A stretch of DNA of 64,000 nucleotides from Sandaracinus amylolyticus. Lineage in GTDB: Bacteria > Myxococcota_A > Polyangia > Polyangiales > Sandaracinaceae. A program made the translations under genes and the position numbers. This document shows positions 50,395-60,628 of this stretch, piece after piece; position 1 is the stretch's first letter, and each line of letters opens with the position of its first letter. The DNA lies in assembly GCF_000737325.1 (NCBI RefSeq), contig NZ_CP011125.1, positions 6,820,001-6,884,000 of the forward strand, read 5' to 3'. The notes below the pieces were generated by a model. That model made no database searches. It worked only from the letters and a program-made list of their open reading frames with translations, and was not told where the DNA came from.

Positions 50395-50766
50395 ATGCGC
50401 GCGTTCGCGGGCGTGCTCGCGGTGGTGCTGGCGGCGGCGGCGGGCACCGCGGGATGGAGCTTCGTGTGGTGCGCGCCGATGAGCCAGGCGCAGCTGCACT
50501 GCTGCTGCCCCGACGCGCCGCGCGGCCACGACTCGATCTCGCGTGACTGCTGCGACGAGCGGAGCATGCCGGGCGTGCCGCGCGTCGACGCGCACGACGA
50601 CGCGACGCCGCGCACGATCGCGGCGCCGCTGATCGGCGTGCTCCCGCTCTGGGCGTGGCTGGGTGCCGAGCGCATCGAAGAGAGCTCGCTGCGCGGGCTC
50701 GACGTCGAGGCGCGCGCCGGGCCCTCGATACGACGGCACGTCTCGATCTCCGTCTTCCTCCTCTGA
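50395..50766 (+). CDS. Small Cys-rich membrane protein at the head of the efflux operon
   Basis: 123 residues from ATG 50395; GTG 50347 would add a basic RLRRLRRRSLVRRVS stretch. One N-terminal span or signal (about 4-25) is followed by CAPMSQAQLHCCCPDAP and RDCCDE: six closely spaced Cys, two Met, two His, an arrangement suited to soft metals. A second hydrophobic segment follows (TIAAPLIGVLPLWAWLG). The arrangement recalls small HYC/CC/PP-type proteins found beside heavy-metal efflux genes in other phyla, but the match is loose. It sits 33 bases before the outer-membrane component, so a metal-sensing or metal-delivery role is proposed (inference). Confidence 0.6.
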   Translation: MRAFAGVLAVVLAAAAGTAGWSFVWCAPMSQAQLHCCCPDAPRGHDSISRDCCDERSMPGVPRVDAHDDATPRTIAAPLIGVLPLWAWLGAERIEESSLRGLDVEARAGPSIRRHVSISVFLL

Positions 50767-50799
50767 TCCACCGCGCGGGTTTCTCGGTCCGGTGCGCTC

Positions 50800-52167
50800 G
50801 TGCGCGCCGCGGGATGGCTCCGTCGCGGAGGATTGGACTTGAGGCAGTGGATCTGGTGCGGCGCGGCCGTGATGGCCGCGGGTTGTGTGTCGCAGACGAC
50901 GTGGCGCGCGCTCGACGACGTCGAGCGCGAGCTCGCGACCCATGCGCGTGAGGAGGACGAGCCGACGAGCGCGCCGGCGCGCGCGGGCTCGTGCGAGGAG
51001 ATCGTGGCGCGCGTGGTCGCGTCGCATCCCTCGCTCGATGCGCTGCGAGCGAACGCGCGCGCGTCGATCGCGGAGGCACGCGCCGAGGGCGCGCTGCCCG
51101 CGCCCGAGCTGATGCTGGAGGTGTGGGACTTTCCGATCGGCGATCCCGAGCGCGCCGATCGCGAGGGCATGTACATGGCCGGGCTCGCCCAGAGCCTGCC
51201 GCCGGCCGGCGCGCTCGACGGTCGCGCGCGCGCCGCGGCGGAAGAAGCGCGCGAGGCGCTCGGCGAGTGGTCGGAGCGGCGCCGCGAGCTCCGCGCCGAC
51301 GCCGCGCACGCGTGCACCGACTGGGCGGAGGCGAAGGCGATCGACGCGCGGCTCGCCGCGGCGGAGGACGTGCTCGCGCGGATGAGCGAGGCGCTGCGCG
51401 CGCGCCTGCCGACGAGCGACGATCCGCTCGCAGAGCTCGCGCGGGTCGACGCCGAGCGCGCACGCGTGCGGCGGATGCGCGCCGAGACGGAGACCACGAT
51501 GGCGCGCGCCGAGGCGCGGCTCGCAGCGTGGATCGGCGAGAGCACGATCACGATCGAGGGCGAGCCCTCGCTCCGCGTGATCGATGCCGTTCCCGATCGC
51601 GACGCGCTCTTCGAGCGCGCGATGCGCGCGCGCGGCGTGATCGAGAGCGCACGAGCGAGCGCACGCGCGGCGGCAGCGCGCGCCGACGCGGCGTCGGCCG
51701 AAGCGAGCATCCCGATGTTCCGCGTGTCCGCGACGTACATGCAGATGCCGCAGGCGCGCGCCGGCCTCGGCGCGTCGTTCTCGATGACGCTGCCCTGGCT
51801 TTGGAGCGGCGAAGGCGCGATGCACGACGCGGCGCGCGCGCGCGCCGAGGCCGCGCTCGACGTGGTCGCCGCGACCGAGCGCACGCTGCGTGGCGAGATC
51901 GCCGCCGCGATCGCGGCGCTCGAGACCGCGCGACGCGCCCTCGCGACGATCGAGAGCGAGGAGCGCCCCGCGGTCGAGCGCGCGCTCGGCGCGATCGCCG
52001 CGACGTACGCGAGCGGGCCCGCGGATCTGCTCGCGTGGATCGACGCAGCGCGCGCGCTGCGCGAGCTCGAGGTGGAGGATGCGCGCCTCCGCGCGGCCGC
52101 CGCGCACGCGTGGATCGATCTCGAGAGCGCGGTCGGCGGGCCGATCGAGACGGAGGTCGCGCGATGA
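50800..52167 (+). CDS. TolC/CusC-type outer-membrane efflux lipoprotein
   Basis: 455 residues from GTG 50800. TTG 50839, preceded by GGAGG, would give a cleaner signal peptide. Lipobox AAGC. Two outer-membrane-efflux repeats, mostly alpha-helical coiled coil: SCEEIVARVVASHPSLDAL, LMLEVWDFPIG, GLAQSLPPAGAL, and RRELRADAAHACTDWAEAKA, then the second half starting at RDALFERAMRARGVIES. In the tripartite pump it forms the outer-membrane channel. The next gene, the adaptor, overlaps it by 4 bases. It is less conserved than the adaptor and pump and is recognised mainly from context and pattern. Confidence 0.82.
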   Translation: MRAAGWLRRGGLDLRQWIWCGAAVMAAGCVSQTTWRALDDVERELATHAREEDEPTSAPARAGSCEEIVARVVASHPSLDALRANARASIAEARAEGALPAPELMLEVWDFPIGDPERADREGMYMAGLAQSLPPAGALDGRARAAAEEAREALGEWSERRRELRADAAHACTDWAEAKAIDARLAAAEDVLARMSEALRARLPTSDDPLAELARVDAERARVRRMRAETETTMARAEARLAAWIGESTITIEGEPSLRVIDAVPDRDALFERAMRARGVIESARASARAAAARADAASAEASIPMFRVSATYMQMPQARAGLGASFSMTLPWLWSGEGAMHDAARARAEAALDVVAATERTLRGEIAAAIAALETARRALATIESEERPAVERALGAIAATYASGPADLLAWIDAARALRELEVEDARLRAAAAHAWIDLESAVGGPIETEVAR

Positions 52168-53441
52168 GCGAGACGACTCGCGAGATCCCCGGGCTGCGCG
52201 CGATGGCGATCGTTCGGTGGATGCTGCTCGTCGCGATCGCCGCGCTGGCCGCCGGCACGTGGTGGACGTACGTGCTGCGCGAGGAGCCGGCGAGCGAGGG
52301 CGAAGCGCGCTTCTACTGCCCGATGCACCCGCAGATCCGCTCGGCGACGCCCGGGACCTGCCCGATCTGTTACATGCGGCTCGAGCCGATCCCCGACGAG
52401 ACGACCGGCGCGCACGATCACGCGGAGCACGCAGAGGAGCCTCCGCCGAGCGTCGAGCCCGTCGCGGTGATGCTCACGACCGAGCGCGTGCAGCGCGCAG
52501 GGATCGCGACCGAGGTCGTGCGTCGCGTGCCGCTCGAGCGGTCGGCGCGATGGGCCGCGGTGATCGAGGCGCGCGAGGGCGCGCGCGCCGAGGTGCGAGT
52601 CCGCGCCGACGCGTTCGTGGAGCGGCTCGTGGTGCGCGAGCCCGGCGTGCGCGTTCGCGCGGGCCAAGTGCTCGCGCACGTGTACGCGCCCGACGTCTTG
52701 CGCGCCGCGGAGGAGCTGCGCGTCGCGCGGCGCTGGCCCGCGATCCCCGGCGCGGAGCACGCGGAGACGCCGCCCGTCGACGCCGCGCTGCGCGAGCGAT
52801 TGGTGCTCCTCGGAGTCTCCGACCCGGACATCGACGCGCTGATCGCGGGCTCGTCGCGGACGGTCCCGCTGCGCGCGCCGATCGCCGGGCACGTCACCGC
52901 GATCGGCGCGACGCGCGGTGGGTACGCGACCCCGGAGACCGCGCTCTTCGAGATCACGGATCTCTCGCAGGTGCGCGTGGTCGCGTCGGCGAGCGCGAGC
53001 GAGCTCGACCTGCGCGACGGTGACGCGCAGTTCGTGTCGCGCGACGGCGGTGACCCGATCGCGCTCGCGCTCGAGCTGATCGAGCCGCGCGTCGAGACGG
53101 ATACCCGCACCGCGCGCGTTCGATTCCTCGCGCGCAACCCCGACGTCACGCTCCTGCCCGGCGCCATCGGCGAGGTGCGCATCGAGGGAACGACGAGCGA
53201 GCAGCTCGTGGTCTCGCGCGATGCGGTGATCGACACCGGCGAGTCCCGCTACGTGTTCGTCGCGCGCGAGGGCGGGCTGTTCGAGCCGCGCCGCGTCGAG
53301 CTCGGCGCGCTGATCGGCGAGCACCGCGTGATCACGTCCGGGCTCGAGCCCGGCGAGCGCGTCGTCATCCGAGGCGCGTTCGTGCTCGACTCCGAGAGCC
53401 GCCTGCACGCGGCGCTCGCACCGAGCGAGGCCGGCGAATGA
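52164..53441 (+). CDS. cusB: RND efflux adaptor, CusB-like, with heavy-metal-binding domain
   Basis: 425 residues. N-terminal span about 16-37. A heavy-metal-binding domain (about 50-75) has YCPMHPQIRSATPGTCPIC followed by YMRLEP: Cys/Met/His residues that in CusB-type adaptors carry Cu or Ag. A His-rich patch (DHAEHAEE) follows. The membrane-fusion core contains VRVRADAFVERLVV, VRVRAGQVLAHVYAP, VPLRAPIAGHVTAIGATRGGY and RFLARNPDVTLLPGAIGEVRI. It links the inner-membrane pump to the outer-membrane channel. It overlaps the pump gene by 4 bases. The gene symbol is given by family resemblance only. Confidence 0.9.
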   Translation: MSETTREIPGLRAMAIVRWMLLVAIAALAAGTWWTYVLREEPASEGEARFYCPMHPQIRSATPGTCPICYMRLEPIPDETTGAHDHAEHAEEPPPSVEPVAVMLTTERVQRAGIATEVVRRVPLERSARWAAVIEAREGARAEVRVRADAFVERLVVREPGVRVRAGQVLAHVYAPDVLRAAEELRVARRWPAIPGAEHAETPPVDAALRERLVLLGVSDPDIDALIAGSSRTVPLRAPIAGHVTAIGATRGGYATPETALFEITDLSQVRVVASASASELDLRDGDAQFVSRDGGDPIALALELIEPRVETDTRTARVRFLARNPDVTLLPGAIGEVRIEGTTSEQLVVSRDAVIDTGESRYVFVAREGGLFEPRRVELGALIGEHRVITSGLEPGERVVIRGAFVLDSESRLHAALAPSEAGE

Positions 53442-56400
53442 TCGCGCGCATCATCGATGCGTGCGCGCACCACCGCGGGCTCGTGCTGCTCGCCGGCCTG
53501 GCGCTCGGGATCGCGGGATGGGTCGCGATGCAGCGCGTCCCGCTCGACGCGATCCCGGATCTCTCCGATCCGCAGGTGATCGTCTTCACGGAGTGGGAAG
53601 GACGATCGCCCACGCTGATCGAAGATCAGATCACGTATCCGATCGTCACCGCGCTGCTCGGCGCGCCGCGGGTCGTCGAGGTGCGCGGGCAGAGCATGTT
53701 CGGGATGTCGTTCGTGTACGTGGTGTTCGAAGAGGGCACCGATCCGTACTGGGCGCGATCACGCGTGCTCGAGCAGCTGCAGAGCGCGAGCGCGCGTCTG
53801 CCCGCGGGCGTCGCGCCGCGGCTCGGGCCCGACGCGAGCGGCATCGGGTGGATCTACCAGTACGCGCTCGTCGATACGTCGGGCACCCACGATCTCGGCG
53901 AGCTGCGCACGCTGCAGGACTTCTCGATCCGCTACGCGCTCGCGAGCGTTCCGGGCGTGGCCGAGGTCGCGAGCGTCGGCGGGTTCCTGCCGCAGTATCA
54001 GGTGACGCTCGACCCCGCGCGGCTGCGTGCGCACGGCTTGTCGGTGCCCGAGGTCGCCGACGCGATCCGCCGCAGCAACCAGGACGTCGGCGGGCGCCTG
54101 CTCGAGATGTCGGAGCGCGAGTACGTCGTGCGCGGGCGCGGCTACCTGCAGGGAAGCGAGGACCTCGAGCGCGTCGTGGTGCGTCGCTCCGAGAGCGGCG
54201 CCGCGCTCACCGTCGGCGACCTCGGCACCGTGCGCGTCGGCGGCGATCTGCGTCGCGGGGCGGCCGACTGGAACGGCGAGGGCGAGGTCGTCTCGGGCAT
54301 CGTCGTGATGCGCCAGGGCGAGAACGCGCTCGACGTGATCCGCCGCGTCGAGGCGCGCATCGACGAGATCGCGCCCTCGCTGCCCGACGGTGTCGAGCTG
54401 CGCGCGGTCTACGATCGATCGGCGCTGATCGAGCGCGCGATCGACACGCTGCGGCACGCGCTCACGGAGGAGATGATCGTCGTCGCGCTCGTCATCCTCC
54501 TCTTCCTGCTGCACGTGCGATCGGCGCTGCTCCCGATCATCGCGCTGCCGCTCGCGGTGCTCATCGCGTTCATCCCGATGGCGCTCTTCGGCATGCCCGC
54601 GACGATCATGTCGCTCGGCGGGATCGCCATCGCGATCGGCGCGACGGTCGACGCCGAGATCGTGATGGTCGAGGCCGCGCACAAGAAGCTCGAGCACGCA
54701 CCGCCCGACCTCACACCGGAGCAGCGGCAGAAGCTGCTCGCCGACGCGGCGCACGAGGTCACGCCCGCGATCTTCTTCTCGCTGCTCATCGTCGCGGTCT
54801 CGTTCATCCCGGTGTTCGGCCTCACCGGACAAGCGGGGCGCCTCTTCCGCCCGCTCGCGTTCACCAAGACGTGCGTGATGCTCTCGGCCGCGCTGCTGTC
54901 GATCACCGTCGCGCCCGCGATGCGCGATCTGCTCATCCGCGGGAAGATCCGCAGCGAGGAGCACCATCCCGTCTCGCGCATCGTGCGGCGCTTCTACGAG
55001 CCCTTCGTGCACGTCGCGCTCGAGAACCCGCGCACCACGCTGCTCATCGGGCTCTTCGCCGTGCTCTCCGCGCTGCCGCTCGTGCCGCGGCTCGGCAGCG
55101 AGTTCATGCCGCCGCTCGACGAAGGCGACCTGCTCTACATGCCGACGACGTTCCCCGGCATCTCGATCGAAGAAGCGCGACGGCAGATGCAGATCCAGGA
55201 CGCACTGCTCCGCGAGTTCCCCGAGGTCGAGAACGTGCTCGGCAAGGTCGGGCGCGCCGACACGCCGACCGATCCCGCGCCGCTCTCGATGGCGGAGACC
55301 GTCGTGCAGCTGAAGCCGCGCAGCGCGTGGCGCACGCGCTACGAGCGCCGCTGGTACCACGGGCACGCGCCGTCGTGGATGCGCCCCGCGCTGACCGCGA
55401 TCTGGCCGGAATTCCGCACGATCACGCGCGAGGAGCTCGTCGACGAGATGAACGCACGGCTGCGTCTCGTGGGCTGGACGAACGCGTTCACCCAGCCGAT
55501 CCGCAACCGCATCGACATGCTCGCGACCGGCATCCGGACGCCGGTCGGGATCAAGGTGCACGGCCACGACCTGCTCGAGATCGAGCGCGCGGGCATCGCG
55601 ATCGAGCGCGTCGTCAACCAAGTGCCGGGCACGCGCAGCGTGCTGTTCGAGCGTCAACAAGGCGGCGTGTACCTCGACGTCGTGCCCGATCGCGACGCGC
55701 TCGCGCGCTACGGGCTGACGATCGAGGACGTGAACGAGGTCGTCGAGCGCGCGATCGGAGGCGACGAGATCACCACGACGATCGAGGGGCGCGCGCGCTT
55801 CGGCGTGAGCGTGCGGTACGCGGAGGACTTCCGCTCGAGCCCCGAGGCGATCGCGGACGCGCTCGTGCCGGTGGGCGAAGGACGTCACGTCGCGCTGCGC
55901 GAGGTCGCGGACGTGCGCGTCGAGGCAGGCCCGCCGATGGTGCGCGACGAGAGCGGCATGCTGGTCGGCTACGTCTACGTCGACGTCGACGAAGGGCGTG
56001 ATCTCGGCAGCTACGTGGAGGAGGCGCGCGCCGCGGTGGAGAGCGCGATCGCGCGCGGTGCGATCACGCTGCCGGAAGGCGGGCACCTGCGCTGGACGGG
56101 CCAGTACGAGCTGATGCTCGAGACCGAGGCGCGCATGAAGATCCTGATCCCGCTCGCGCTCCTCGCGGTGATCCTGCTGCTCTATCTGCAGTTCCGCGAT
56201 CTCACGGAGGTCCTGATCGTCTTGCTCAGCGTGCCGTTCGCGCTCGTGGGCAGCGTGTGGGCGCTCTGGCTGCTCGACTATCACCTGTCGACCGCGGTCT
56301 GGGTCGGCGTGATCGCCCTGATCGGCCTCGCGGCGCAGACCGGCGTCGTGATGATCGTCTACATCGATCAAGCGTACGAGAAGCGGCTGCGCGAAGGACG

Positions 56401-56917
56401 CATCCGCACGCTCGCCGACATCGTCGACGCGCACGCCGAGGGCACCATCCAGCGCGTGCGGCCGAAGCTGATGACGGTCGGCACGATGCTCGTCGGGCTC
56501 GTGCCGCTGCTCTGGGCCGAGGGCTCGGGCGCCGACGTGATGAAGCGCATCGCCGCGCCGATGGTCGGCGGATTGATCACGAGCGCGTTCCTCACGCTCG
56601 AGCTCATCCCGGTCGTCTACACGTACTGGCGCAACGAGCAGCTCGTGCACCGTCGCATCGCGGACGCCGCGCCCGAGATGCTGCTCGAGCTGCGGAAGAT
56701 CATCGTGATCGTCCAGGCATCGGCGGCGCTGCTCGTGGCCTCGCTCGCGCTGCGGCTCTACGTCGACGGCTACGACGCTGCGCTGACCACGGCGCACGTG
56801 GCGGGCGCGGGAGGACTCGTGCTCGGCGCGATCGTGTATGGATGGGCGCGCCGCCGCGCGCTCGGTGTGATCTCGGGCCGCGCGCCCACGGACCTGGTAG
56901 GAGAGTCGAATGTCTGA
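53438..56917 (+). CDS. cusA: Heavy-metal RND efflux pump, CusA/CzcA type
   Basis: 1159 residues, about 100 longer than typical CusA. Twelve spans in the RND layout with two large periplasmic loops. Signature N-terminus VPLDAIPDLSDPQVIVFTEWEGRSP...QITYPI is specific for the heavy-metal subgroup. The fourth span carries GATVDAEIVMVEAAHKKLE with the proton-relay acidic residues. The second half holds PGISIEEARRQM, GRADTPTDPAPLSMAE, RIDMLATGIRTPVGIKVHG and QVPGTRSVL. The extra C-terminal ~80 residues include two more hydrophobic segments (IIVIVQASAALLVASLALRL, GAGGLVLGAIVYGW). It pumps Cu(I)/Ag(I) or divalent metal out using the proton gradient; the metal type is inferred from neighbours. Confidence 0.95.
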   Translation: MIARIIDACAHHRGLVLLAGLALGIAGWVAMQRVPLDAIPDLSDPQVIVFTEWEGRSPTLIEDQITYPIVTALLGAPRVVEVRGQSMFGMSFVYVVFEEGTDPYWARSRVLEQLQSASARLPAGVAPRLGPDASGIGWIYQYALVDTSGTHDLGELRTLQDFSIRYALASVPGVAEVASVGGFLPQYQVTLDPARLRAHGLSVPEVADAIRRSNQDVGGRLLEMSEREYVVRGRGYLQGSEDLERVVVRRSESGAALTVGDLGTVRVGGDLRRGAADWNGEGEVVSGIVVMRQGENALDVIRRVEARIDEIAPSLPDGVELRAVYDRSALIERAIDTLRHALTEEMIVVALVILLFLLHVRSALLPIIALPLAVLIAFIPMALFGMPATIMSLGGIAIAIGATVDAEIVMVEAAHKKLEHAPPDLTPEQRQKLLADAAHEVTPAIFFSLLIVAVSFIPVFGLTGQAGRLFRPLAFTKTCVMLSAALLSITVAPAMRDLLIRGKIRSEEHHPVSRIVRRFYEPFVHVALENPRTTLLIGLFAVLSALPLVPRLGSEFMPPLDEGDLLYMPTTFPGISIEEARRQMQIQDALLREFPEVENVLGKVGRADTPTDPAPLSMAETVVQLKPRSAWRTRYERRWYHGHAPSWMRPALTAIWPEFRTITREELVDEMNARLRLVGWTNAFTQPIRNRIDMLATGIRTPVGIKVHGHDLLEIERAGIAIERVVNQVPGTRSVLFERQQGGVYLDVVPDRDALARYGLTIEDVNEVVERAIGGDEITTTIEGRARFGVSVRYAEDFRSSPEAIADALVPVGEGRHVALREVADVRVEAGPPMVRDESGMLVGYVYVDVDEGRDLGSYVEEARAAVESAIARGAITLPEGGHLRWTGQYELMLETEARMKILIPLALLAVILLLYLQFRDLTEVLIVLLSVPFALVGSVWALWLLDYHLSTAVWVGVIALIGLAAQTGVVMIVYIDQAYEKRLREGRIRTLADIVDAHAEGTIQRVRPKLMTVGTMLVGLVPLLWAEGSGADVMKRIAAPMVGGLITSAFLTLELIPVVYTYWRNEQLVHRRIADAAPEMLLELRKIIVIVQASAALLVASLALRLYVDGYDAALTTAHVAGAGGLVLGAIVYGWARRRALGVISGRAPTDLVGESNV

Positions 56918-57266
56918 TGCTCGTCGTGTCTTCGTCGTGATCGGGATCGCGCTCGCGAGCGCGTGTGGATCGAGCGCGGCGACGCCGCCGAACCCCGATG
57001 GGCGCCCCGAGATCGCGGTGCGCGTCGGCGCGGAGGGGTACGATCCCGCCGAGGTCACCGCGGCCGCCGGGGCCCCGGTGCGCCTGGTGTTCACGCGCAC
57101 GACCGACGAGGGCTGCGGTCAGCAGCTCGTGTTCCCGTCGCTCGACATCCGCCGCGATCTGCCGCTGAACGAGCCCGTCGCCGTCGATCTCACGATGCCC
57201 GCCGATGGCCGCGTGCGCTTCACGTGCGGCATGGACATGTACGACGGCGCGCTGGTCGCTCGGTGA
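56910..57266 (+). CDS. Cupredoxin-like lipoprotein, metal-handling
   Basis: 118 residues, overlapping the pump stop by 8 bases. Signal with lipobox ASAC (C19). The mature domain is a small cupredoxin-type beta sandwich: EIAVRVGAEGYDPAEVTAAA, VRLVFTRTTDEGCGQQLVFPSL, VDLTMPADGRVRFTCGMDMY. The paired Cys (DEGCGQ, FTCGMD) and Met in the last loop are candidate Cu ligands. Such domains bind copper or silver in the periplasm and hand it to efflux pumps, a job done by CusF in Enterobacteria. It is the last gene of the + strand operon; its stop directly abuts that of cobC. Confidence 0.83.
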   Translation: MSDARRVFVVIGIALASACGSSAATPPNPDGRPEIAVRVGAEGYDPAEVTAAAGAPVRLVFTRTTDEGCGQQLVFPSLDIRRDLPLNEPVAVDLTMPADGRVRFTCGMDMYDGALVAR

Positions 57267-57797
57267 TCACCGGCGGCGATGCACCGCGTCGACCGCGAGG
57301 TGCGTGATCGCGAGCGACATCGCATCCGTCCACGCGGTGCCGTCCACGATCACGCGCAGCGCGCGCGCGACGCCGGCGTGGGCGACGAGCAGCGCGTCGT
57401 GCTCGAGCTCGTCCCACCACGCGCGCACTCTCGCCTCGACGTCGCGCGCGCTCTCGCCGCCGGGCGCGCCTTCGTGCTCCCACGCGCGCATCCACCGCTC
57501 GAGCGCACCAGGATCGATCTCGTCCCACGCACGACCGTCGAACGAGCCGTGATCGATCTCGAGCAAGCGCGTGTCGACGCGATGGGGCACGCCGAGCGTC
57601 CGCGCGACGATCGACGCAGGAACGGCGCATCGCGAGAGCGGAGACGACCACACGGCGTGCACACCGTGCCCCGCGATGCGCTCGACGATCACGCGAGCCG
57701 CGTCGACGTGCGCGAGCTCGACGTCGACCTCGGTGCGTCCGATGCAGCGCCCGCTCGCATGCGTCGGCGCGTGTCGGATGACGACGAGCGACGTCAT
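57267..57797 (-). CDS. cobC: Alpha-ribazole phosphatase-like histidine phosphatase (CobC)
   Basis: 176 residues from ATG 57797, overlapping cobS by 4 bases. Phosphoglycerate-mutase superfamily: RHAPTHASGRCIGRTEVDVEL (Ala replaces the usual Gly after the catalytic His), SSPLSRC, a DHGSFDGRAWDE proton-donor region, and the second His in LLVAHAGVARAL. In a cobalamin operon this position and fold fit removal of the phosphate from alpha-ribazole-phosphate or from the finished cobalamin phosphate. A general histidine phosphatase is the alternative. Confidence 0.85.
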   Translation of the reverse strand: MTSLVVIRHAPTHASGRCIGRTEVDVELAHVDAARVIVERIAGHGVHAVWSSPLSRCAVPASIVARTLGVPHRVDTRLLEIDHGSFDGRAWDEIDPGALERWMRAWEHEGAPGGESARDVEARVRAWWDELEHDALLVAHAGVARALRVIVDGTAWTDAMSLAITHLAVDAVHRRR

Positions 57798-58558
57798 GCT
57801 CCGGCCGTCATCGCGAGCGCGAGCAGCACGACGCACTCGCCGACTTGCTCGGTCGCGCCGAGGAAGTCACCGGTGATCCCGCCCGCACGCACGATGAATC
57901 GCCAGGTGCAGATCGCAGCCGCGACCGCGAGCGCGACGAGCACCACGGCCACGCGCACCGCGCTCAGGCCGCATGCCATCGCGCTCGCGATCACGATCGC
58001 CGTGAGGAACGTCGCGACCCACGCCTGACGCGGCCCGCCGCGCGTGAGATGACGGCTCTTGCTGTGCTCGTCGTTCGTCACGTAGGGCAGCGCGGCCATC
58101 ATCCACACCGGCGGCGTCCGCGCGATGCATGCCGAGAGCACACAAGCGAGCAGCGCCTCGTGCTCGAGCCGCGCGAGCAGCGCGACGCGCAGCGCGAGCA
58201 CCACGAAGAGCGCCGCCGCGCCGAAGCTCCCGACGCGGCTGTCCTTGAGGATCACGAAGAGCTTCTCGCGATCGTACGCACCGCCGAGCGCATCGGCCGT
58301 GTCCGCCAGCCCATCCTCGTGGAACGCGCCGGTCAGCATCATCGAGAGCGCGACGCAGCAGATCGCAGCCGCCATCGCGCCCGCAGGAAGCAGCGCGAGC
58401 ATCACCACGCCCGCGATCGCGCCGAGCACGGCGCCGACGAGCGGGAAGTACGCGCCCGCCCAGCGAAAGTCGTCTTTCGTATACGGAAAGCCGCCGACCG
58501 GGATGCGCGTGAGGAACACGAACGCGGCGCGCGCGCCGCGGATCCACGGAACCGTCAT
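57794..58558 (-). CDS. cobS: Adenosylcobinamide-GDP ribazoletransferase (cobalamin synthase CobS)
   Basis: 254 residues, multi-span membrane enzyme. Diagnostic sequence: FLTRIPVG near the start, YFPLVGAVLGAIAGVV, GAFHEDGLADTADALGG (Mg site), ILKDSRVGSFGAAALF. It joins GDP-cobinamide to alpha-ribazole to make cobalamin. It overlaps cobT upstream and cobC downstream, each by 4 bases, so the three are made together. Confidence 0.96.
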   Translation of the reverse strand: MTVPWIRGARAAFVFLTRIPVGGFPYTKDDFRWAGAYFPLVGAVLGAIAGVVMLALLPAGAMAAAICCVALSMMLTGAFHEDGLADTADALGGAYDREKLFVILKDSRVGSFGAAALFVVLALRVALLARLEHEALLACVLSACIARTPPVWMMAALPYVTNDEHSKSRHLTRGGPRQAWVATFLTAIVIASAMACGLSAVRVAVVLVALAVAAAICTWRFIVRAGGITGDFLGATEQVGECVVLLALAMTAGA

Positions 58559-59592
58559 TCGCGATCCGGCACCGCCGCCTCCGCGAACGTCGCCATTCCT
58601 TCGTGGAGCGCGCACGCGAGATCGAGCAGCGGGAGCGCGGCGAGCGCGCCGCTCGCTTCGCCGAGCCGCATCCCGAGATCGAGCAGCGGACGCGCGCCGA
58701 GCGCGTCGAGCACCAGCCGATGCGCCGGCTCCGCCGAGCAGTGTCCGAAGATCACGCGCGCGCCGAGATCCGGCACGACGCGCGAGAGCGCGAGCAGCGA
58801 TGCCGCGACGACGTACCCGTCGGCGAGCACCACCGCGCGGCGCTGCATCGCCGCGTGCGCCGCGGCCGCCATCGCGAGCAGATCCCGGCCACCGACACGC
58901 GCGAGCACCGACCACGGATCGCGATCGCCGCCGAGCGCCGCGACGGCATCGCTCACCACGGCGCGCTTGCGCGCGATTCCTTCGCCATCGAGGCCCGTGC
59001 CCGGCCCGACGGTGCGCTCGGCCGGGATATCGAGCAGCGCCGACACGACCGCGGCTGCGGCCGTCGTGTTGCCGATCCCGATCTCGCCGAGCACCAGCAC
59101 CGCGAGCTCGTCGATCGCGCTCACGGCGTCGACCGCGGCACGCCGCACGCGCTGCGCGTCATCGGGCGACACCGCGCGCGCCTCGCGCAGATCGCCGAGG
59201 GCCACGTCCGCGACGTCGTCGCGGATCACGCGACGGCCGTCGCGCTGCGGAGGAACACGCGGAGCCGCGACACCGACGTCGAGCACGACCAGCGGCACTC
59301 CGAGCGACGCGCACATCACGCTCGCCGCCGCCCCACCCCGCGCGAGGTTGTCGATCATCGCGCGCGTCACCTCGGCCGGATACGCCGAGACGCCATGCTT
59401 CGTGACCGCGTGATCGCTCGCCGCGATCAGCGCCGTCGCGGGTCGGCTGCGCGGCCGGACGCGGCCTTGGATCGCCGCCATCGTCGCGACCACGTCCTCG
59501 AGCGCGCCGAGGCTGCCGCGCGGTTTGGTCAAGCTCGCTTGACGATCGCGCGCACGCGCCGTGGCGTCGTGATCGAGCGCCGGGAGCGTCAC
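58555..59592 (-). CDS. cobT: Nicotinate-nucleotide-dimethylbenzimidazole phosphoribosyltransferase CobT
   Basis: 345 residues from GTG 59592, overlapping the lipoprotein stop (GTGA). Typical CobT blocks: RQASLTKPRGSLGALEDV at the N-terminus, DHAVTKHGVSAYPAEVT, LGEIGIGNTTAAAAV, VGPGTGLDG and the C-terminal RLGEASGAL with the catalytic Glu at about 312. It makes alpha-ribazole-phosphate from the lower ligand base. No CobU/CobP gene is in the window, so the nucleotidyl-transfer step must be encoded elsewhere. Confidence 0.95.
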   Translation of the reverse strand: MTLPALDHDATARARDRQASLTKPRGSLGALEDVVATMAAIQGRVRPRSRPATALIAASDHAVTKHGVSAYPAEVTRAMIDNLARGGAAASVMCASLGVPLVVLDVGVAAPRVPPQRDGRRVIRDDVADVALGDLREARAVSPDDAQRVRRAAVDAVSAIDELAVLVLGEIGIGNTTAAAAVVSALLDIPAERTVGPGTGLDGEGIARKRAVVSDAVAALGGDRDPWSVLARVGGRDLLAMAAAAHAAMQRRAVVLADGYVVAASLLALSRVVPDLGARVIFGHCSAEPAHRLVLDALGARPLLDLGMRLGEASGALAALPLLDLACALHEGMATFAEAAVPDRE

Positions 59593-60356
59593 CGCGTCAC
59601 CACGTAGCGCGCGTACACGCCGTCGATGTCCGAGCCGTTGCTGGTCGGGTCGCGCGGATAGTTGCGTCCGGTCTCGGGGTTCACGCGCATCGCCGCGCTC
59701 TCGAGCCGCACGTAGCGCGCGCCCTCGCGACGAATCGACGCGCCCTCGCCTTCGTCGGGCAGCGACGAGAGATCGAACGCGTCGCCGCCCGCCGCGATGG
59801 GATCGAAGGGATCCACGTCGTTCGTCTCGACGTTCAGCAACACCGGCGTGATCCCCGCGAACCCGACCCAGTCCTCCGGCGCGATCGAGTACCTCGTCGG
59901 ATCTTCGGCCGCGTAGTCGTGCGGGAGATCGACCCACGTCTCTCCGTCGCGCGACACCGACACGATGATCGGGTCCATGAAGTTCCCGCTCGCGCCCGCG
60001 GCGCGGAACCCGTTCTCGAAGACGACGAGATCCGCGCCCGGTCCGTCGGCGATCACCGCGCCGCTCCAGCCGAGCACGAGGTGCGTGCGCGTCGCGTAGT
60101 CGAGCGAGTACACGTCGAACGAGCCCTGCGTCGGTCCGCCGCCGCGCACGCCGTTGATCGCCTTGTCGGGATCGCCGAACCCCTCGCCGGTCGCGCCCGG
60201 CGCGTCGACGATCTCGTCCGCGAGCACCGCTTCGTCGGGAAGCGGCGCCGCGGCATCGTCGCGAACGATCCCCGCATCGACATCCTGCGTCGCGCTTTCG
60301 CCGCACCCGACGAGCAACACGATCGCGACGCACCACGCACTTCGCTGCTGACCCAC
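59589..60356 (-). CDS. Riboswitch-led lipoprotein, cobalamin-locus surface protein
   Basis: 255 residues from GTG 60356; lipobox LVGC (C18). After an Asp/Ala linker the mature part is a beta-rich domain: GSFDVYSLDY, HLVLGWSGAVIADGPGADLVVFEN, DPIIVSVSRDGETWVDLPHDY, GFAGITPVLLN, AFDLSSLPDEGEGA and ARYVRLES. Similar surface lipoproteins occur in Bacteroidetes and Leptospira near vitamin B12 loci; I recall this from their motif pattern, so treat it as weak. It is the first gene after the cobalamin riboswitch and overlaps cobT, which argues for a role in cobalamin or cobinamide binding or uptake at the cell surface (inference). Confidence 0.75.
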   Translation of the reverse strand: MGQQRSAWCVAIVLLVGCGESATQDVDAGIVRDDAAAPLPDEAVLADEIVDAPGATGEGFGDPDKAINGVRGGGPTQGSFDVYSLDYATRTHLVLGWSGAVIADGPGADLVVFENGFRAAGASGNFMDPIIVSVSRDGETWVDLPHDYAAEDPTRYSIAPEDWVGFAGITPVLLNVETNDVDPFDPIAAGGDAFDLSSLPDEGEGASIRREGARYVRLESAAMRVNPETGRNYPRDPTSNGSDIDGVYARYVVTR

Positions 60357-60447
60357 GAGTCCCTCGCCGCCATTCCGCGGTTCCGGCCGTGTCCGCGCGA
60401 CGTCCCTCGAGTCGCGTGGACCGCCCGCGCACCGGGCGCGGGCACTC

Positions 60448-60628
60448 TCGGCAGGTCTTCGGGCTCGCAGGCGTGGCTCTCGAGGAGCCTCCTACTGATC
60501 GTGCCTTCCCGCGCCCACAGGCGCAGTGGTCGCCACGACGTTCGTTCCTGCACACCGCTGCGGGGCAGCGCCGGAGTCGCACCGGCTTCCCTCGAGGCGA
60601 GCGTTCGCGACGCCCGCACCGAAAGCAG
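60448..60628 (-). promoter_or_regulatory. Cobalamin (B12) riboswitch
   Basis: Read on the minus strand, 5' to 3', the conserved blocks appear in the right order: CGGTGCGGGCGTC, then AGGGAAGCCGGTGCGACTCC, GCTGCCCCGCAGCGGTG, ACCACTG, GGGAAGGCAC, AGTAGGAGGC and GAGCCCGAAGACCTGCC. These are the signature boxes of the cobalamin aptamer. A 7-base-pair hairpin (60424-60442) lies just downstream and could be part of the expression platform. It has no T-tract, so control at translation or by Rho is more likely than intrinsic termination. It is followed after about 90 bases by the lipoprotein-cobT-cobS-cobC operon. Confidence 0.93.

Follow-up and report, generated by a model that had tools for sequence, protein, structure and literature searches.

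A cobalamin riboswitch-led operon of Sandaracinus amylolyticus joins cobTSC to a LIC_13355-family lipoprotein with a probable role in cobamide acquisition

The stretch of DNA analysed here, called the window, comprises 64,000 nucleotides of the chromosome of Sandaracinus amylolyticus (contig NZ_CP011125.1, positions 6,820,001 to 6,884,000). Near its end, a cobalamin riboswitch precedes four genes on the minus strand, of which the first codes for a lipoprotein and the other three for enzymes of cobamide lower-ligand assembly. The features of the locus are as follows, in the order of transcription and in window coordinates.

60443..60627, minus strand: cobalamin riboswitch aptamer RF00174 (cmscan, 82.8 bits, E 6.8e-19)
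60357..60442, minus strand: putative expression platform in the interval from aptamer to start codon, with GC-rich hairpins and without a U-tract terminator
60360..60365, minus strand: Shine-Dalgarno-like GAGGGA, read from the sequence and kept in the congener
59589..60356, minus strand: LIC_13355-family lipoprotein, an open reading frame of 255 amino acids with a GTG start (NF033170, 160.4 bits vs. a cutoff of 120)
60303..60314, minus strand: lipobox L-V-G-C (Cys18), read from the sequence
59601..60251, minus strand: LIC_13355 domain, jelly-roll-like with an F5/8C-type model (profile match 159.4 bits; Foldseek)
58555..59592, minus strand: cobT, nicotinate-nucleotide-dimethylbenzimidazole phosphoribosyltransferase (PF02277, 4.7e-99; TIGR03160, 324.5 vs. 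a cutoff of 319.3; cutoff of NF000996 also passed)
57794..58558, minus strand: cobS, adenosylcobinamide-GDP ribazoletransferase (PF02654, 3.6e-48; below the NCBIfam equivalog cutoffs)
57267..57797, minus strand: cobC, alpha-ribazole phosphatase-like histidine phosphatase (PF00300, 1.1e-26; best NCBIfam match TIGR03162, 117.7 bits, under the cutoff of 162.9)

An earlier note on this DNA had proposed a cobalamin aptamer controlling four genes joined by 4-base overlaps, and both observations held. The covariance-model search with cmscan placed RF00174 at 60627-60443 well above its gathering threshold (82.8 vs. 31.5 bits), covering model positions 12-179 of 189, and this was the only Rfam match at or above the gathering score in the whole window. 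The overlaps are exact at all three junctions (GTGA between the lipoprotein gene and cobT, ATGA between cobT and cobS and again between cobS and cobC), at the coordinates given in that note. Among the three enzymes, CobT scored above the cutoffs of curated models, CobS was recognised via Pfam, and CobC was identified by a best match below its cutoff. Control of the entire four-gene unit by the riboswitch, as claimed in the earlier note, is therefore well supported as a prediction from position and overlapping coding.

Ligand binding to cobalamin riboswitches represses the genes behind them. Because no intrinsic terminator was found in the interval between the aptamer and the lipoprotein gene, the switch probably acts at the level of translation. 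RNA folding was not decisive alone, with a z-score of −1.92 for positions 60335-60460 and one of −0.63 when the full leader was folded. We did not use the minimum-energy fold of the ligand-free leader, in which the 3' end of the aptamer pairs with the start region, because such pairing would run counter to an OFF switch and is not significant over the full leader. The leader, the Shine-Dalgarno sequence and the start codon are all kept in another species of the genus, with a mean column identity of 92% in the leader alignment.

The riboswitch-cob operon itself is ordinary. It resembles other cobTSC operons controlled by cobalamin riboswitches in having an RF00174 aptamer ahead of the genes for lower-ligand assembly, but differs from them in being headed by a LIC_13355-type lipoprotein gene. 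Since cobT, cobS and cobC are classical targets of cobalamin riboswitches, the switch might serve these three genes alone, with the lipoprotein as a passenger in first position that has an unrelated role in this genome. We consider this very unlikely: the first position and the conserved Shine-Dalgarno sequence and start codon beside the aptamer point to the lipoprotein gene as a direct target, and in most relatives the lipoprotein gene follows a riboswitch without any cobTSC genes.

The lipoprotein had been described in the earlier note as a protein of unknown function, which still applies to the function but no longer to the family, as it belongs to the named NCBIfam family NF033170 (LIC_13355 family lipoprotein). 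A profile search of the genome returned this gene as a single copy. The protein carries a lipoprotein signal with a lipobox (MGQQRSAWCVAIVLLVGC, LVGC), as judged by inspection. No Pfam family matched it at E<1, and thus there was no match to DUF4465 (PF14717); PDB searches with the single protein sequence and with the profile likewise returned no relative. The AlphaFold model of the whole lipoprotein has a mean pLDDT (predicted local distance difference test score) of 90.9 and shows a mixed jelly-roll type rather than a propeller. Comparing it to the PDB with Foldseek gave weak matches from the F5/8C/CBM32 jelly-roll class, with the lipoprotein chain 8blw_B of the BtuB1-BtuG1 complex at the top (E 9e-4, template-modelling score 0.38, root-mean-square deviation 12), the only match below E 0.001. 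The domain contains a polar core that is strongly conserved across phyla and looks like a ligand or metal site.

To what extent the family is linked to cobalamin riboswitches was analysed in 379 sampled genomes of Myxococcota, 146 of which match the LIC_13355 family. Thirty-eight of these form a strong tier (at least 103 bits), and the rest form a weak tier (20–56 bits). Twenty-five of the 38 strong-tier genomes have a same-strand cobalamin riboswitch upstream of the family gene (within 1.5 kb in 23), as do 39 of 60 weak-tier genomes, compared with co-locations of about 0.03 and 0.06, respectively, expected by chance. Almost all of the linked strong-tier genomes (22 of 25) contain two or fewer cobalamin riboswitches genome-wide. 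At strong-tier loci, the partners include propellers, fused or adjacent, and adjacent BtuFCD. Members of one family (f36) are propeller proteins that carry the LIC_13355 domain at their C-terminal end and lie beside a TonB receptor, and several of these loci also contain BtuCD. Eleven of the 12 TonB receptors adjacent to the family match the B12-receptor model TIGR01779, at scores below its curated cutoff and with siderophore models matching too. An additional LIC13354-like domain occurs at 22 of the 38 strong-tier loci, often encoded between the riboswitch and the lipoprotein gene and sometimes fused in front of the lipoprotein. This domain of about 100 amino acids (YTDxxG...SRFDW...YYCQ...GCGGFxW) is a recurrent riboswitch-proximal partner, encoded singly, by two genes in tandem or within a fusion (L042, L049, L051, L054, L061 and others).

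Loci outside the Myxococcota were fetched by protein motifs alone, and the presence of riboswitches was then checked by running cmscan on the loci themselves. They come from at least six further phyla and mostly from metagenome-assembled genomes (MAGs), whose individual taxon names may be wrong. An RF00174 aptamer is located upstream on the same strand in 40 of these 49 loci, which derive from Bacteroidota, Planctomycetota, Verrucomicrobiota, Pseudomonadota, a cyanobacterium (Cyanobacteriota), Sumerlaeota and WOR-3. The Bacteroidota-type proteins align with the LIC_13355 family by hhalign at 99.9% (E 2.8e-35, 195 columns), and 16 of 18 match NF033170 individually, the best with 7.6e-22. On the basis of these profile comparisons, the LIC_13355 family is part of a wider, Pfam-less superfamily, which we refer to by its 'GPGxDxxVFEN' domain. 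TonB receptors occur beside the superfamily gene at 27 of the 49 loci, DUF4465 proteins at 24, and propellers also at 24, a count from an iterated profile that may include unrelated propellers. A Lentimicrobium MAG (Bacteroidota) contains a protein exported by the type IX secretion system that fuses the VFEN domain to DUF4465 (PF14717, 1e-45; L156:7830-9782), again encoded behind a riboswitch. DUF4465 proteins have been shown experimentally to bind B12 (PMC12751083, PMC13398666). Two further loci showed peculiarities: in a Planctomycetota MAG, a row of six Acido-Lenti-1 RNA motifs adjoins the domain (L128:8815-9394), and the matching protein of 'Glaciecola amylolytica' (L140, CP034120.1) has a type IX sorting tail, which is unusual for a gammaproteobacterium, so that the record may be misnamed.

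These neighbourhoods bear on the tie to lower-ligand assembly suggested in the earlier note. Among the 87 scored loci of the family and superfamily, CobTSC genes are neighbours only in two myxobacteria, both Sandaracinus-type, and at two Flavobacterium loci, where cobT, cobS and cobC lie near the superfamily gene. The lipoprotein is therefore associated more strongly with uptake (BtuB, BtuG-like proteins, DUF4465) than with CobTSC.

The source genome, a single contig of 10,327,335 bp, contains six cobalamin riboswitches. According to a simple gene caller, the other five precede one nrdA/nrdB pair, one TonB receptor operon and three genes for propeller-type or related lipoproteins. The receptor operon (L009:1820-8216) consists of the riboswitch followed by genes for a TonB receptor, a BtuG-like propeller lipoprotein, BtuF, BtuC, BtuD and CobU. 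The best PDB fold matches of the modelled propeller lipoprotein (pLDDT 83.4) are the B12-bound BtuG structures 8bmy, 8bmz and 8okv (E ~3e-9), which suggests that a BtuB-BtuG-like uptake operon with its own riboswitch is present in the genome. Cobalamin riboswitches are also directly followed by two more related lipoprotein-type genes of no known family (L010:10498-11802 and L011:6989-7819), the aptamer of the second being weak (38.8 bits). Of the six riboswitches, the strongest (L007, G000:C1:9757687-9757917) is located upstream of nrdA/nrdB, a classical arrangement for controlling a B12-independent ribonucleotide reductase. CbiC/CobH, which is required for de novo synthesis of the corrin ring, was not found in the genome by searches whose controls gave matches. 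Because of this missing enzyme, we read the organism as probably a corrinoid salvager, judged on this one marker. No LIC13354-like domain was detectable in the source genome by a search run without a positive control.

On the other side of the operon, window positions 50395-57266 (plus strand) contain a heavy-metal efflux operon coding for TolC-like, membrane-fusion and resistance-nodulation-division (RND) proteins, the latter CusA-like with 1159 amino acids, and finally for a small cupredoxin-like lipoprotein. This final gene ends at base 57266, immediately beside base 57267, where cobC ends.

Because the family and its superfamily are found behind B12 switches and beside B12-uptake genes in many phyla, a role in B12 capture is very probable, and we hold the involvement of the window lipoprotein in cobamide acquisition with high confidence. 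With only slightly less confidence, we regard the locus as a likely riboswitch-repressed operon for cobamide salvage, in which the lipoprotein would be an accessory protein of cobamide capture at the outer membrane or cell surface. With plentiful cobamide, the aptamer would bind it and expression would be shut off, probably through a block on translating the first gene. Under cobamide scarcity, the lipoprotein would be made together with CobT, CobS and CobC, the enzymes that would build the lower ligand and attach it. After export and lipidation at Cys18, the lipoprotein would have its anchor in the outer membrane and probably face outward. In this position it may serve as an accessory protein for capturing or handing over cobamides or cobinamide beside BtuB and BtuG-like partners, and any cobinamide captured would be completed by CobTSC.

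Our best reading from comparison with the known capture proteins is that the window lipoprotein would work like BtuG, BtuH or BtuJ but belongs to a different family. It shares with the DUF4465 proteins BtuJ1 and BtuJ2 of B. theta the nature of a riboswitch-controlled lipoprotein or exported protein, the presence at the same loci (24/49), one fusion and the jelly-roll type, but has neither a DUF4465 match nor the B12-binding motif MNTPxY, and BtuJ structures are absent from its 50 listed fold matches. BtuG of Bacteroides is a surface capture lipoprotein partnering BtuB, and a riboswitch-linked BtuG-like propeller family adjoins the LIC_13355 family in relatives, whereas the window protein is modelled as a jelly roll and not as a seven-bladed beta-propeller. 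BtuH is likewise an accessory riboswitch-controlled lipoprotein of cobamide loci, and the BtuG1 (BtuGH) chain mentioned above is the top fold match, but a weak one, and there is no sequence match between BtuH and the window protein.

The earlier note had suggested a cobamide-binding surface protein. The cobamide-related role is strongly supported by the recurrent riboswitch linkage and by the B12-uptake neighbours and fusions, while binding and surface exposure are putative; we put direct binding of cobamides by the lipoprotein at about an even chance. A protein that belongs to the uptake complex without binding the ligand, for example as a scaffold, vesicle or receptor-assembly factor, is a somewhat less probable but serious alternative. 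The same genomic linkage would be expected of it, the fold is a generic jelly roll, and there is a precedent in BtuL of B. theta, which is riboswitch-regulated and promotes vesicle release, with no cobalamin binding observed (PMC12751083). Such a role is at odds with the fusions of the domain to B12-binding DUF4465 and to propellers, and with the conserved polar core resembling a ligand or metal site.

Several points weigh against the proposed role in cobamide capture. The jelly roll of the F5/8C/CBM32 type is a common fold which elsewhere mostly binds sugars, and the match to 8blw_B is too weak to call homology. The window lipoprotein is accompanied by CobTSC and not by BtuB, and neither a terminator nor a clear sequestering helix was found in its leader. 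Seven of the strong-tier genomes contain no cobalamin riboswitch at all, and six contain one elsewhere. Finally, the namesake of the family, LIC_13355 of Leptospira, appears in the literature as a putative lipoprotein without known function and has so far been studied only as a putative adhesin; laminin, plasminogen and endothelial cells were the reported binding partners of the recombinant, refolded protein (PMC11891782). The gene has not been reported behind a cobalamin riboswitch, the two known riboswitches preceding btuB and a cobalt/cob locus (PMC3953431, PMC3493377).

These data would also fit a family of adhesins or extracellular-matrix-binding lipoproteins whose riboswitch linkage is incidental, as the fold class contains discoidin domains that bind sugars and lipids, and both LIC_13354 and LIC_13355 are induced about 3.7-fold in host-adapted Leptospira cells (PMC3953431). 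We give this explanation hardly any credence. The linkage extends over at least seven phyla of mostly free-living bacteria and far exceeds chance co-location in the strong tier, the published binding was obtained with refolded insoluble protein, and LIC_13355 is present in saprophytic Leptospira too (PMC11891782). The window lipoprotein is in the same family as the Leptospira protein by its above-cutoff score, and many Myxococcota loci keep a LIC13354-like gene directly upstream or fused, as in the LIC_13354-LIC_13355 pair, whose gene order we took from locus tags and papers. The two systems differ in the treatment of the Leptospira protein as an adhesin, its unreported riboswitch and the lack of a detectable LIC13354-like domain in the source genome.

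For cobamide capture as the role of the family, no precedent emerged: no paper in the literature searched ties the LIC_13355 family to B12, and the assignment of the superfamily to cobamide acquisition appears to be new to that literature (partial libraries). It provides a function hypothesis for a widespread exported family that Pfam does not cover, with members in Myxococcota, Bacteroidota, Planctomycetota, Verrucomicrobiota, Pseudomonadota, Cyanobacteriota, Sumerlaeota and WOR-3. Whether the LIC_13355-type domain represents a superfamily of cobamide-binding surface proteins that spans phyla and has gone unrecognised, as a further class beside BtuG, BtuH, BtuJ and BtuK and with the Leptospira protein included, appears to us evenly balanced. 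If this is true, B12 capture by dedicated surface proteins would be a general strategy and not a speciality of gut Bacteroides, and the host-induced, adhesin-like LIC_13354 and LIC_13355 of Leptospira would be B12-acquisition candidates worth retesting as cobamide-acquisition proteins.

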